A stretch of DNA of 64,000 bases from NCBI GenBank assembly GCA_947500005.1, contig CANMQJ010000016.1:1-64000 (forward strand), read 5' to 3'. The notes below the pieces were generated by a model. That model saw nothing but the letters and a program-made list of their open reading frames with translations. It was not told the DNA's origin and ran no database searches. Shown piece after piece: positions 3,296-19,819 of this stretch. How positions within the stretch are numbered: the stretch's first letter is position 1; every line of letters starts with the position of its first letter. Source of the DNA: an uncultured Paracoccaceae bacterium (GTDB lineage Bacteria > Pseudomonadota > Alphaproteobacteria > Rhodobacterales > Rhodobacteraceae). Position numbers and translations under genes: made by a program.

Positions 3296-4873
3296 ATGAC
3301 CCAAGCAGCGACCGAACAGGACCGCGTCCTGATTTTCGACACCACCCTGCGCGACGGCGAGCAGAGCCCCGGCGCCACCATGACCCACGAAGAAAAGCTC
3401 GAGATCGCCGAACTGCTCGACGAGATGGGCGTCGACATCATCGAGGCGGGCTTTCCCATCGCCTCCGAAGGCGATTTCAAGGCGGTGGCCGAGATCGCCA
3501 AACGCTCCAGGAACTCGGTGATCTGCGGGCTGGCGCGCGCCAACCCCACCGATATCGACCGCTGCTGGGAGGCGGTGAAGAATGCCGGCAAGCCGCGAAT
3601 CCACACCTTCATCGGCACCTCGCCGCTGCACCGCGCCATTCCCAACCTGACCCAGGACGAGATGGCCGAGCGCATCCACGAAACCGTCACCCACGCCCGC
3701 AACCTCTGCGACAACGTGCAATGGTCGCCGATGGACGCCACGCGGACCGAGTGGGACTATCTCTGCCGCGTTGTCGAGATCGCCATCAAGGCCGGTGCCA
3801 CCACGATCAACATCCCCGACACCGTGGGCTACACCGCGCCCGAGGAATCGGCCGACCTGATCCGCCGCCTGATCCAGACGGTGCCCGGCGCCGACGAGGT
3901 CGTCTTCGCCACCCACTGCCACAACGACCTGGGCCTCGCCACGGCCAACGCGCTGGCCGCCGTCGCGGGCGGCGCGCGCCAGATCGAATGCACGATCAAC
4001 GGTCTGGGCGAACGGGCGGGCAACACCGCGCTCGAGGAGGTGGTGATGGCGCTCAAGACCCGCCACGACATCATGCCCTGGCATACCGGCGTGGACACGA
4101 CCAAGATCATGCATATCTCGCGCCGCGTCTCGACCGTCTCGGGCTTCCCGGTGCAGTTCAACAAGGCCATCGTCGGCAAGAACGCCTTCGCGCATGAATC
4201 GGGCATCCACCAGGACGGCATGCTCAAGAACCGCGAGAATTTCGAAATCATGCGCCCCGAGGATATCGGGCTCGCCGGCACCTCGCTGCCGCTGGGCAAG
4301 CATTCGGGCCGCGCCGCGCTTCGCGACAAGCTGAACAACCTCGGCTACGAGGTGGGCGACAACCAGCTCAAGGACATCTTCGTGCGGTTCAAGGAACTCG
4401 CCGACCGCAAGAAGGAGGTTTTCGACGACGACATCATCGCGCTGATGCGCACCGCCGAGGATGCCGCGAACGACCATCTGCAACTGGTGTCGATGAAGGT
4501 GATCTGCGGCACCGGCGGCCCGGCCGAGGCCACGGTGGAGATGGAGATCGACGGAAAGGACGTGACCGCGACCGAAAATGGCGACGGCCCGGTGGACGCC
4601 GCCTTCAAGGCGATCCGCGCGCTGCATCCCACAAAGGCACATCTGCAACTCTACCAGGTCAACGCGGTGACCGAGGGCACCGACGCGCAGGCCACCGTCT
4701 CGGTCCGGCTGGAAGAGGACGGCATGATCGCCACCGGCCAGTCGGCCAATACCGACACGGTGGTGGCCTCGGCCAAGGCCTATATCAACGCGCTCAACCG
4801 CCTGATCGTGCGCCGCGAAAAGGCCGGGCCCGGCGCGGATGCGCGCGAGATCAGCTACAAGTACCTGACCTGA
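3296..4873 (+). CDS. leuA: 2-isopropylmalate synthase
   Basis: FDTTLRDGEQSPGATM, HCHNDLGLATANALAAV, HESGIHQDGMLK; 525 aa. Confidence 0.97.
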   Translation: MTQAATEQDRVLIFDTTLRDGEQSPGATMTHEEKLEIAELLDEMGVDIIEAGFPIASEGDFKAVAEIAKRSRNSVICGLARANPTDIDRCWEAVKNAGKPRIHTFIGTSPLHRAIPNLTQDEMAERIHETVTHARNLCDNVQWSPMDATRTEWDYLCRVVEIAIKAGATTINIPDTVGYTAPEESADLIRRLIQTVPGADEVVFATHCHNDLGLATANALAAVAGGARQIECTINGLGERAGNTALEEVVMALKTRHDIMPWHTGVDTTKIMHISRRVSTVSGFPVQFNKAIVGKNAFAHESGIHQDGMLKNRENFEIMRPEDIGLAGTSLPLGKHSGRAALRDKLNNLGYEVGDNQLKDIFVRFKELADRKKEVFDDDIIALMRTAEDAANDHLQLVSMKVICGTGGPAEATVEMEIDGKDVTATENGDGPVDAAFKAIRALHPTKAHLQLYQVNAVTEGTDAQATVSVRLEEDGMIATGQSANTDTVVASAKAYINALNRLIVRREKAGPGADAREISYKYLT

Positions 4874-7020: not shown

Positions 7021-8172
<1,152 letters not shown>

Positions 8173-16057: not shown

Positions 16058-16933
16058 ATGCCGAACAACGGAACCGCACATATACTCACCCTGCTGGAAG
16101 CGGATTTCGCCGGCATCGTCGACGAATGGGTCGGCGCGCAGATCGAAGAGGGCGTCAAGCGCTCCGACCTCTTCTCCGATGCCGAAAGCCGCGCGCAAAG
16201 CACCGAACTGCTCAAGGCGCTCGCCAAGGGCATGCGCGCCAATGACAACACCGTCGAGTTCGACTTCAGCGCCGATGCCTGGGACGACCTGCGCGCCGTG
16301 CTGGCCGACATCACCCGCGAACGCGTCAATCGCGGCGTCACGCCGACCGAGATGGCCACCTTCATGCTGGCGCTCAAGGGTCCGCTCTTCGACCGGCTCC
16401 GCTCCAGCCTCGGCAAGGATGCCGAGGCGCTGGTCGAGCAGATCATGCTGGTCTCGCGCCTGGTCGATTCCTTCGCGATCCATACCAACGAGGTCTTCAT
16501 CGCCGAGCGCGAACAGATCATCGACCGTCAGCGCGAGGAGATGATGGAGCTTTCGACCCCCGTGGTCGAACTGTGGGACCGCGTCCTGACCCTGCCGCTG
16601 ATCGGCACGCTCGACAGCGCACGCGCGCAGGAAGTCATGGAAAACCTTCTGGAAACCATCCTGCAACGCCAGGCCGAGGTGGTGATCGTCGACATCACCG
16701 GGGTCGGCACCGTCGACACCCAGGTGGCCCAGCACCTGCTGCGCGCCGCCGCCGCGGTGCGGCTGATGGGGGCCGAATGCATCATCTCGGGCATCAGCCC
16801 GATGATCGCGCAGACCATGGTGCAGCTGGGTATCGACGTGGGCTCCGTCTCCACCCGCCAGAACATCCGCGCGGCGCTGGCCGACGCGCTGCCCAAGGTC
16901 GGCTACAACATCCACCGGGTCAAGGACAGCTGA
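16058..16933 (+). CDS. RsbR-type stressosome co-antagonist (RsbRD-like N-domain + STAS)
   Basis: C-terminal STAS domain with VVIVDITGVGTVDTQVAQHLLRAAAAVRLMGAECIISGISP; first gene of RsbRST module. Confidence 0.9.
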   Translation: MPNNGTAHILTLLEADFAGIVDEWVGAQIEEGVKRSDLFSDAESRAQSTELLKALAKGMRANDNTVEFDFSADAWDDLRAVLADITRERVNRGVTPTEMATFMLALKGPLFDRLRSSLGKDAEALVEQIMLVSRLVDSFAIHTNEVFIAEREQIIDRQREEMMELSTPVVELWDRVLTLPLIGTLDSARAQEVMENLLETILQRQAEVVIVDITGVGTVDTQVAQHLLRAAAAVRLMGAECIISGISPMIAQTMVQLGIDVGSVSTRQNIRAALADALPKVGYNIHRVKDS

Positions 16934-16934
16934 G

Positions 16935-17291
16935 ATGTCCGGGGTCGCCGCCATCAACCTGGTCGAGAACGCGCTCCTCGTCTCGATACAGGACGACGTC
17001 ACCGATACCGACATCATCGAGCTTCAGGACACGCTCTCGCAGCGCATCGCGCTCGAGGAGAACATCCGCGGCGTGGTGCTCGACATCTCCGCGCTCGAGA
17101 TCGTGGACACCTTCGTGGGCCGGGTGATCGCGCAGCTCGCGGGCATCGCCCGGCTGCTCGACGCGCAGACCTTCGTGGTGGGGATGCGCCCGGCCGTGGC
17201 GGTGACGCTGGTGGAACTGGGCATGTACCTGCCCGAATCGCGCACGGCCCTCAGCCTCACCCATGCGCTTGCACAGCTCAAGCGTGGCTGA
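16935..17291 (+). CDS. RsbS-type stressosome STAS protein
   Basis: Single STAS domain GVVLDISALEIVDTFVGRVIAQLAGIARLLDAQTFVVGMRP; 118 aa. Confidence 0.9.
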   Translation: MSGVAAINLVENALLVSIQDDVTDTDIIELQDTLSQRIALEENIRGVVLDISALEIVDTFVGRVIAQLAGIARLLDAQTFVVGMRPAVAVTLVELGMYLPESRTALSLTHALAQLKRG

Positions 17292-17688
17292 GCGCGGCAG
17301 GGACCTTCTCCGCTTGCCGCTCAAGACCAATCGCGACGTTGTCGCCGCCCGCCAGGCCGTCGCCCGCGAACTGAAGGCCCGCGGGGCCCGGCCGATCCGG
17401 GTCACCCGCTTCGCCACGGCGGTCAGCGAGATCGCCCGCAACACGGTCCTGCATGGCGGCGGCGGCTCTTTTGCGGTTTTTCTCGACCCCGCTTCGGGCT
17501 ATCTCATGGTCGAATGCCGCGACGCGGGCGAGGGCATCGCCGATCTCGACCGCGCCATGACGGATGGCTACAGCACCGGCGGAAGCATGGGCCGGGGCCT
17601 TGGCGGCGCGAAACGGCTCGCCGACCGGTTCGAGATCGAGACCGGTCCGGGAAAGGGAACACGGGTAATACTGGGCGCCAGGCTATGA
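17284..17688 (+). CDS. RsbT-type serine/threonine kinase
   Basis: GHKL ATPase: RFATAVSEIARNTVLHGGGG, CRDAGEGIADLDRAMTDGYSTGGSMGRGLGGAKRLADRFEIETGPGKGTRV; GTG 17284 (ORF open from 17263). Confidence 0.88.
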   Translation: MAERGRDLLRLPLKTNRDVVAARQAVARELKARGARPIRVTRFATAVSEIARNTVLHGGGGSFAVFLDPASGYLMVECRDAGEGIADLDRAMTDGYSTGGSMGRGLGGAKRLADRFEIETGPGKGTRVILGARL

Positions 17689-18692
17689 AGCGATGGATCG
17701 ACATCAACGACCGAAGCGCCATCGCCGCGATCCGCAGGCTCGCGCGGCGCTATGCCTCGGGCCTGAACCTTCCCGAAACACGCCTCGACGCGCTCGCCAT
17801 CGTGGTGACCGAGGCCGCCACCAACATCCTGCGCCATGCCGGACGGGGCCGCGCCCTGATCGAGGTGATCGAGGGCGCGGGCGTGCGCAAGATCGCCCTC
17901 GTCTTCGCCGATCACGGCCCGGGCATCACCGACATGGACCGGATGATGCAGGACGGCTACAGCAGCATGCCCGATTCCTCGGGCCTGGGCCTGGGCTCCA
18001 TCCGGCGGCTCTCGGACACGTTCGACATCTACTCGACCCCGGGCGAAGGCACGACCATCACCTGCTCCTTCGCGTCCGAGGATGACCCCCCCTATGCCGA
18101 TACGCTCGCGCTTGACGGTCTGCGCGTCTGCTACCCCGGCGCGAATGTCTGCGGCGACGACATGATGGTGCGCCCCGGCGCGGGCCATACCGACATGCTG
18201 CTCTGCGACGGTCTGGGCCATGGCAGCCTCGCCGCCAAGGCATCCGCCGAGATCGTCGAGATCGCCCGCCACCTGCACCTCGCGCCCGCCGAAACCATCG
18301 CCCATCTCAGCCGCGAGATGGTCGGCCATCGCGGCGCCGTGGCGGCCATGGCGCGGATCGACCACGCCACCGGGCAGCTCGACTATTCCGGCCTCGGCAA
18401 CATCACCACGCTCTGCCTCGGCCCCGAGACGCATAAACGCCTCGCTGTGCGCGACGGGCGGATCGGCGGCGCGCCGACTCGCGGCTTCAACGAACAGGTG
18501 ATGCTCAACCCCGGCGACCTGGTGATCCTGCACAGCGACGGGCTCAAGACGCTGGGCGACCGCGACCTTCCGCCCGCCCTGCTGGCCCGCAGCCCGATGC
18601 TGATCTGCGGCCACCTTCTCGACCGCGCCTTTCGCGGCCGCGACGATGCAAGCATCCTCGTGATGCGCTGGCTCGGAAGGGCCGCCGCATGA
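17685..18692 (+). CDS. RsbT-like ATPase domain fused to SpoIIE/RsbX-like PP2C phosphatase
   Basis: N-term VVTEAATNILRHAGRG/DHGPGITDMDRMMQDGYSS; C-term GDDMMVRPGAGHTDMLLCDGLGHGSLAAKAS ... HSDGLKT; 4-nt overlap with RsbT. Confidence 0.88.
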   Translation: MKRWIDINDRSAIAAIRRLARRYASGLNLPETRLDALAIVVTEAATNILRHAGRGRALIEVIEGAGVRKIALVFADHGPGITDMDRMMQDGYSSMPDSSGLGLGSIRRLSDTFDIYSTPGEGTTITCSFASEDDPPYADTLALDGLRVCYPGANVCGDDMMVRPGAGHTDMLLCDGLGHGSLAAKASAEIVEIARHLHLAPAETIAHLSREMVGHRGAVAAMARIDHATGQLDYSGLGNITTLCLGPETHKRLAVRDGRIGGAPTRGFNEQVMLNPGDLVILHSDGLKTLGDRDLPPALLARSPMLICGHLLDRAFRGRDDASILVMRWLGRAAA

Positions 18693-19819
18693 AACCGGTC
18701 CGGCTGACGACGCTCCGGCTGGAGAAATCCGCCGACATCATGCGCCTGCGCGAGGTCGGCATGGCCATCACCACCAAACTTGGCTTCGCCACCTTCGAAC
18801 GCACCCGCACCGTCACCGCGATGATCGAGATGGGACGCAACGCGATCGAACACGGGCATCGCGGCCGCGCCACATTCGCCCTGTCCGAGGTGCTGGGCCG
18901 CACCGCCATCCAGTTCACCGTGCTCGACCAGGGCCGCGGCATCCCCGAGGACGCGCTCAAGGGCAAGCCCGGCACTGGCCAGGGGCTTGGCCTCGGCCTG
19001 CGCGGCGCCCAGCGCATCGCCTTTTCCTTCGATGTCGAAAGTGGCGCCGAGGGCACCAGGATCGAGGCCGTCTTCCGCCCCTCCGCCATGCACCGCCTGA
19101 CCGACGCGCTGGTGGCCGAGGTGACCGAGGTCATCACCACCATCGACGACTCCGATCCCACAGCCGCGCTCACCGAACAGAACCGTGAACTGCTCGAGGC
19201 GCTGGCCGAACGCGATCTGCTGATGCAGGAATTGCACCATCGCGTCGGCAACAACCTGACCCTGATCGGTGCGCTGATCCGCATGACCGCCACGCAGTCG
19301 GGCAGCGCCGAGACGAAACAGGCCCTGCTGGAACTCGACACGCGCGTCTCCTCGCTCGCCAAGGCGCATGAGCTGATGCAGCAGGCCGCCAAGGAGGGCA
19401 CCGTGCCCGCCGGCAAGCTGCTCGAGGATGTGGCGCTGAACACCGAACGCGCCTTCAACACCGCAGGGCGACAGGTCAGGATCACCGTGAACTGTCCGCC
19501 CCTCGAACTCGACGGGCGCGTCGCGGTGGATATCGGCCTCATCGTGGGCGAGCTGATCACCAACGCCTACAAACATGCTTTCGAGGGCCGTTGCGAGGGC
19601 ACCATCACCGTCACGCTCGCCGAGGCCGAAGAGGGCGGGCTCGACCTCGTCGTGACCGATGACGGGGTGGGCCTTGCCGCGGATGCCGAACGCCCCGAAC
19701 GCTCCGACTCGCTGGGCTGGCGTCTCATCCGCACGCTGGTCTTCCAGAACGACGGTACGCTTTCGGTCGAAAGCGAGGGCGGCATGACCGTCCGCATCCA
19801 CCTCATCCCGGCAGAGTAG
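18689..19819 (+). CDS. Sensor histidine kinase with N-terminal RsbT-like GHKL domain and C-terminal HisKA_2/HATPase
   Basis: N-term MIEMGRNAIEHGHRGR/DQGRGIPEDALKGKPGTGQGLGLGLRGAQRI; then ELHHRVGNNLTLIGALIRM H-box and LIVGELITNAYKHAF ... VTDDGVGL. Confidence 0.87.
   Translation: MKPVRLTTLRLEKSADIMRLREVGMAITTKLGFATFERTRTVTAMIEMGRNAIEHGHRGRATFALSEVLGRTAIQFTVLDQGRGIPEDALKGKPGTGQGLGLGLRGAQRIAFSFDVESGAEGTRIEAVFRPSAMHRLTDALVAEVTEVITTIDDSDPTAALTEQNRELLEALAERDLLMQELHHRVGNNLTLIGALIRMTATQSGSAETKQALLELDTRVSSLAKAHELMQQAAKEGTVPAGKLLEDVALNTERAFNTAGRQVRITVNCPPLELDGRVAVDIGLIVGELITNAYKHAFEGRCEGTITVTLAEAEEGGLDLVVTDDGVGLAADAERPERSDSLGWRLIRTLVFQNDGTLSVESEGGMTVRIHLIPAE

Follow-up and report, generated by a model that had tools for sequence, protein, structure and literature searches.

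A stressosome operon of an uncultured Paracoccaceae bacterium ends in an RsbT-like histidine kinase that may feed the PhyR-NepR-EcfG general stress response

Introduction

What does a stressosome control when its operon ends in a histidine kinase? The question is raised by five genes of an uncultured Paracoccaceae bacterium (order Rhodobacterales), found at positions 16058-19819 of a 64,000-nucleotide stretch of contig CANMQJ010000016.1 (the whole stretch is hereafter the window). The first three encode RsbR, RsbS and RsbT. The products of the last two each begin with an RsbT-like domain, which is followed in one by a phosphatase of the RsbX/SpoIIE type (T/X) and in the other by a histidine kinase (T-HK). 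The stressosome probably controls T-HK through the RsbT-like domain of the latter, and T-HK in turn would feed the PhyR-NepR-EcfG pathway, with docking and phosphotransfer as the presumed connecting steps. Some alphaproteobacteria seem to have coupled a stressosome, the stress sensor familiar from Bacillus, to a histidine kinase of the kind that activates their own, unrelated general stress response.

Results

The operon and its stressosome core

The five genes lie on the + strand in the order rsbR-rsbS-rsbT-T/X-T-HK and touch or overlap one another, with successive spacings of +1, -8, -4 and -4 nucleotides. The value of -8 is for rsbT read from GTG at 17284; an alternative start, ATG at 17263, gives a longer overlap with rsbS. 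The tight coupling and the spacings claimed in an initial annotation of this DNA are borne out by the coordinates, as are its domain identities for all five proteins by searches of Pfam and the Protein Data Bank (PDB).

16058-16933, + strand: RsbR, 291 amino acids (Pfam; PDB alignment to Vibrio and Listeria RsbR)
16091-16402 and 16565-16837, + strand: RsbRD_N sensor domain and STAS domain of RsbR (Pfam)
16935-17291, + strand: RsbS, 118 amino acids, one STAS domain (Pfam STAS, 2e-8; PDB match RsbS)
17284-17688, + strand: RsbT, standalone GHKL kinase, 134 amino acids from GTG or 141 from ATG 17263 (Pfam HATPase_c_2, 1.2e-10)
17685-18692, + strand: T/X, 335 amino acids, fusion of an RsbT-like domain with a phosphatase of the RsbX/SpoIIE type (Pfam, PDB)
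17718-18065 and 18183-18671, + strand: RsbT-like domain and phosphatase domain of T/X (Pfam)
18689-19819, + strand: T-HK, 376 amino acids (Pfam, AlphaFold, Foldseek, alignment, tree), comprising an RsbT-like GHKL domain (about 18704-19078), a helical linker, HisKA_2 (19229-19441) and a C-terminal ATPase domain (19526-19804)
19238-19240, + strand: phosphoacceptor His184 of T-HK (alignment)

The first three genes supply, in one operon, the components of an RsbRST stressosome: an RsbR with sensor and STAS domains, a single-STAS RsbS and a GHKL RsbT. In alignment, the equivalents of the RsbR phospho-acceptors are S187 (codon 16616-16618) and T221 (16718-16720), which we take to correspond to T171 and T205 of B. 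subtilis, and Thr59 of RsbS (17109-17111) occupies the site of the phosphorylated serine, so that all of these sites are retained as Ser or Thr. The Pfam E-values for RsbR were 2.7e-19 (RsbRD_N) and 4.7e-16 (STAS); its PDB sequence matches were the RsbR proteins of Vibrio and Listeria stressosomes, and the nearest among solved structures was the Vibrio vulnificus stressosome protein (7O0I). T/X matched HATPase_c_2 (2.8e-14) and SpoIIE (8.7e-11) in Pfam, and RsbX (3W40) and SpoIIE (3ZT9) in the PDB.

The last gene joins an RsbT-like domain to a HisKA_2 kinase

Pfam recognises in T-HK a HisKA_2 domain (1.9e-14) and two HATPase stretches; the protein thus holds both the phosphoacceptor and the ATPase domain of an HWE/HisKA2 kinase. 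Its PDB sequence match was the EL346 kinase (4R39), and its closest NCBIfam match was PhyK, over the C-terminal part only and far below the cut-off of that model. His184 is invariant across 17 orthologues, and both GHKL domains retain their N box, G1 and G2 motifs. In the AlphaFold model (mean predicted local distance difference test score, pLDDT, 83; predicted template modelling score, pTM, 0.54) the two GHKL domains are linked by a long helix that continues into the phosphoacceptor domain, and the best Foldseek match of the whole model was the EL346 kinase domain. Since kinase domains dominate this search, the N-terminal domain was folded and searched alone (pLDDT 87, pTM 0.82). SpoIIAB was its first match, RsbW and UsfX matched well too, and the predicted fold places it in the class of GHKL proteins that have STAS partners. 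This resemblance to SpoIIAB and RsbW agrees with the GHKL fold proposed earlier for the domain and speaks against its absence.

A tree of 78 GHKL domains, with three kinase ATPase domains as outgroup, was built on 135 columns and left many forks unresolved. It nevertheless places all 23 T-HK N-terminal domains in one clade among the RsbT domains (Shimodaira-Hasegawa-like approximate likelihood ratio test, 95). The RsbT of the window clusters with other standalone RsbT proteins, and the N-terminal domains of T/X fall apart from the T-HK clade. Three successive genes do carry RsbT-like domains, as had been noted, the phosphatase-linked one being a separate lineage and the kinase-linked one grouping with RsbT.

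The operon is a conserved accessory module

A full-length T-HK is encoded by 11/295 genomes of the order (10/294 besides the genome of the window). A close RsbS is restricted to exactly those 11, all of which show the identical five-gene order, so the co-occurrence of T-HK with RsbRST expected among relatives holds. Erythrobacteraceae carry the operon on four contigs, one of them interrupted by a contig edge. A class-wide sample added one further genome with T-HK at E < 1e-35 (G638), and an RsbS profile search found stressosomes in 14/385 alphaproteobacterial genomes. In Phaeobacter (58 records), Alloyangia and Salipiger the operon is plasmid-borne and therefore behaves as an accessory module; the cultured Phaeobacter inhibens DSM 17395 has it on a plasmid as PGA1_RS18475-18495. 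Genes outside the operon are conserved between close relatives only. By tblastn, the 8-19 kb neighbourhoods of the orthologues contain no receiver or sigma gene except a single-domain receiver in Salipiger and the phyR gene of the G638 genus, both described below.

The PhyR pathway lies elsewhere in the genome, and inside the operon in one genus

RsbU, RsbV, RsbW and SigB do not adjoin the operon, T-HK is its final gene, and the neighbours are unrelated. The annotated genes around it are metabolic or cell-wall genes, and tblastn of the 64-kb window found no homologue of PhyR, NepR, EcfG or a receiver. The earlier remark that no sigma factor lies beside the operon is thus correct locally but misleading for the genome, in which an extracytoplasmic function (ECF) stress sigma factor, its anti-sigma factor and PhyR are found on contig C7. 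There, a PhyK-like kinase, EcfG, NepR (49 bits) and PhyR (345 bits) are encoded together in one locus, and the genome therefore has the PhyR-NepR-EcfG set looked for alongside general-stress HWE/HisKA2 kinases.

In the genus of G638, the operon starts with phyR in 5/5 species, on the same strand as rsbR and 15-16 nucleotides ahead of it. The encoded protein has the receiver Asp motif in 5/5 and, by Pfam in G638, the sigma-like domains. Each of these genomes holds three PhyR proteins, the operon copy and two others, and the operon copy therefore looks dedicated. This gene order argues for PhyR as the target more strongly than any other single observation, though it represents one evolutionary event. 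Three findings support the initial proposal of signalling from the stressosome into a two-component pathway: the HisKA_2 kinase, PhyR elsewhere in the genome and phyR in the operon of this distant genus.

PhyR is encoded in 18/18 tested genomes whose T-HK is of the HisKA_2 type and in 2/5 of those with a HisKA-type kinase (Fisher p 0.006, a statistic that ignores relatedness). This comparison covers genomes outside the Erythrobacteraceae, leaves out G470, whose kinase is cut by a contig end, and counts among the HisKA-type genomes one (G565) that is only 89% complete.

An EcfG-type motif is found at the nepR/phyR genes of the window's own genome. It is a near-palindrome in the nepR-phyR gap of contig C7 (L103, about 7500-7525), GGAACCAATCAGCGTGTCCGTTGGTT, readable on both strands.

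The kinase half varies behind a shared N-terminal domain

Stressosome operons could be sorted by their outputs. Type A, a T-HK with HisKA_2, occurs in the order of the window, in Erythrobacteraceae, in the G638 genus and in G388 and G497. Type B, a T-HK with HisKA and usually a REC domain, occurs in G353, G565, G688 and G725, and the kinase of G730 is also of this type. In type C (G191, G538 and G645) a separate RsbX is followed by a kinase that bears RsbU_N where scanned; G227 and G021 resemble this type, their kinases lying outside the RsbU_N scan. Other stressosomes are followed by a GGDEF-EAL protein (G476) or by a kinase with neither adaptor (G474). Because the kinases of types A and B share their N-terminal domain, the adaptor appears to have been retained while the kinase half changed. 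These sequences suggest that the kinase half was exchanged between lineages and that the RsbT-like domain is the constant adaptor.

The RsbS motif of the window is VDTF in place of the usual VDSF, with Thr replacing the phosphorylated Ser. Thr at this site is common to the aligned type A sequences of the order and of Erythrobacteraceae, and the RsbS of the G638 genus and of types B and C has Ser. Two further arrangements were seen. In G574 (L205, 7513-11278) the stressosome operon has two successive standalone RsbT-like genes, then RsbX and a HisKA kinase. On a linear plasmid of Streptomyces sp. Mg1 (L233, 6968-11827) the genes after a stressosome with a T/X fusion encode a phosphatase of the SpoIIE type and a further GHKL protein.

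Discussion

A model for stressosome control of T-HK

Once released, the RsbT of B. subtilis binds the N-terminal domain of RsbU and orders a coiled-coil linker, by which the effector is activated; it has been proposed that this RsbT-linker logic can be transferred between effectors, including kinases (PMC12143880). The PhyR response commonly receives its input from HWE/HisKA2 kinases, and one of them phosphorylates PhyR in Rubellimicrobium thermophilum (PMC12148442); a single-domain regulator sometimes stands in between (PMC5964349). In the operon of the window, RsbR and RsbS would form the core, with the standalone RsbT docking on their STAS domains and the RsbT-like domain of T-HK presumably docking there likewise. 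A kinase of type A or B bears the RsbT-like domain itself, so the core could hold and release it directly. Upon stress, RsbT would phosphorylate the conserved Ser/Thr sites of both core proteins and then leave. The RsbT-like domain of T-HK would likewise come free or change its arrangement, altering the helical linker and either activating the HisKA_2 half or converting it from a phosphatase into a kinase. T-HK would then phosphorylate PhyR, directly or via a single-domain regulator; phosphorylated PhyR would sequester NepR and so free EcfG, and T/X would dephosphorylate RsbR and RsbS to reset the core. In this scheme we infer the assembly of the complex, the docking of the RsbT-like domain, the sign of regulation and the phosphotransfer to PhyR. 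That the extra RsbT-like domains may compete for the core or dock on it, as had been suggested, is a reasonable supposition.

Alternative targets and roles

Several observations weigh against PhyR as the target. The operons linked to phyR are confined to one genus and so count as one event, and the T-HK of that genus is only about 32% identical to that of the window. In the order of the window phyR is not adjacent to the operon and the background is high, with PhyR in 199/295 genomes. For its presence in 11/11 T-HK genomes of the order p is 0.012, and with genera as the unit (7/7) only 0.07; co-occurrence within the order was considered as support on its own and discarded as too weak at the latter value. 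An EcfG-type promoter was found upstream of type A operons in 0/23 regions, which leaves no evidence of operon autoregulation; such promoters are found for some genes of the pathway and are not required of them. No RsbRST was found on the 14.8-kb stretch around the HisKA-type T-HK of G730 (L166, 8196-9515), and a HisKA_2 tree does not separate one acquisition of the kinase half from two. Finally, on a plasmid of Salipiger sp. CCB-MM3 (L169) a single-domain response regulator (4466-4834) lies on the same strand about 520 nucleotides upstream of rsbR, and is a possible alternative partner of T-HK.

Were such a regulator the general partner, PhyR would be an indirect target or none at all. In Caulobacter and Sphingomonas, MrrA and SdrG receive phosphate from HisKA2/HWE kinases, and MrrA hands its phosphate to PhyK (PMC5964349); the genome of the window, moreover, encodes several small receivers. 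None of these, among the loci examined, has the FATG(G/Y) motif, however, the other type A loci searched have no single-domain receiver near the operon, and the G638 genus has phyR in the operon rather than a single-domain regulator, so that we hold this route to be unlikely. It is still less probable that T-HK is a second input or feedback enzyme instead of the output, its RsbT-like domain acting as a Ser/Thr kinase or as a dimer partner of RsbT. That domain could be catalytic, since 17/17 orthologues preserve its N, G1 and G2 boxes as well as the Glu that precedes the N-box Asn by four residues, and GHKL proteins of the SpoIIAB/RsbW type dimerise. Yet the kinase half is intact as well and is swapped for other kinase types behind the same N-terminal domain, as expected of an output, and in type C the domain is replaced by RsbU_N, the RsbT-binding output domain of RsbU. 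The prevalence of PhyR in the order regardless of the operon, and the other outputs of related alphaproteobacterial stressosomes, such as the GGDEF-EAL protein, would also fit an unrelated, unlinked two-component output, for instance an orphan regulator acting on motility or on second messengers, an output of the kind suggested for Vibrio, with PhyR merely common in alphaproteobacteria. The phyR gene inside the operon in all five species of the G638 genus and the contrast in PhyR content between HisKA_2-type and HisKA-type genomes make this very improbable.

Comparison with known systems

With the RsbRST-SigB system of Bacillus and Listeria the operon shares RsbR, RsbS and RsbT with their STAS and GHKL domains, the phosphorylatable sites and an RsbX-like phosphatase. 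It differs in lacking RsbU, RsbV, RsbW and SigB, in having a histidine kinase as output, in the fusion of RsbX to an RsbT-like domain and in the RsbRD_N sensor of RsbR. In operons of the Vibrio type, too, RSTX genes precede a histidine kinase and the sigma cascade is missing (PMC9237108, PMC10014275); G191, G227 and G021 are examples in the order of the window. They have a single-domain RsbX, a HisKA-type kinase (with RsbU_N in G191) and, in published cases, a globin-coupled RsbR, whereas here the phosphatase is fused, the kinase combines HisKA_2 with an RsbT-like domain, and the operon lacks a receiver gene after it. The order R-S-T-(T/X)-(T-kinase) and the RsbT-like kinase N-terminal domain recur in the type B hybrids (G353, G565, G688, G725) and on the 177-kb plasmid MP1 of the model organism Deinococcus radiodurans, where an RsbR-S-T-(T/X)-(T-HisKA-REC)-kinase operon is found (L231, 5953-11757). 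These hybrids differ in their classical HisKA and REC domain(s), and the genomes of the alphaproteobacterial ones often lack PhyR. The MP1 stressosome genes are annotated merely as STAS, anti-sigma and ATP-binding proteins. Finally, T-HK shares its HisKA_2 phosphoacceptor and ATPase half with PhyK, EL346 (its best fold match) and RT-HK, but these have PAS/LOV or other sensors, where T-HK has an RsbT-like input and the stressosome as sensor.

Stressosome operons followed by histidine kinases are thus already known, with eleven downstream architectures listed for RsbR of the globin type, the query of that survey being globin-coupled RsbR and not the RsbRD_N type present here (PMC9237108). Another paper handles the stressosome and PhyR systems separately (PMC3999984). 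In the open-licence papers that we read there was no report of a stressosome-PhyR link or of an RsbT-kinase fusion, and a search of open-licence literature gave no paper covering both Phaeobacter and the stressosome; the fusion and the link provisionally appear to be new.

Significance

Little is known of the targets of Gram-negative stressosomes. The output kinase described here comes from a family with frequent ties to PhyR, and in one genus phyR lies in the operon itself, which makes this open question directly testable in a cultured host of the plasmid-borne operon, P. inhibens DSM 17395. We lean, by a small measure, towards two general stress responses being wired together, a STAS Ser/Thr partner switch passing through a phosphohistidine relay to the PhyR-NepR-EcfG switch, with the RsbT-like domain as a portable plug through which kinases of different types connect to the stressosome. 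If so, a sensor hub of the SigB type would be joined to the EcfG response, and a duplicate of RsbT would have become an adaptor that can be placed before different kinases.

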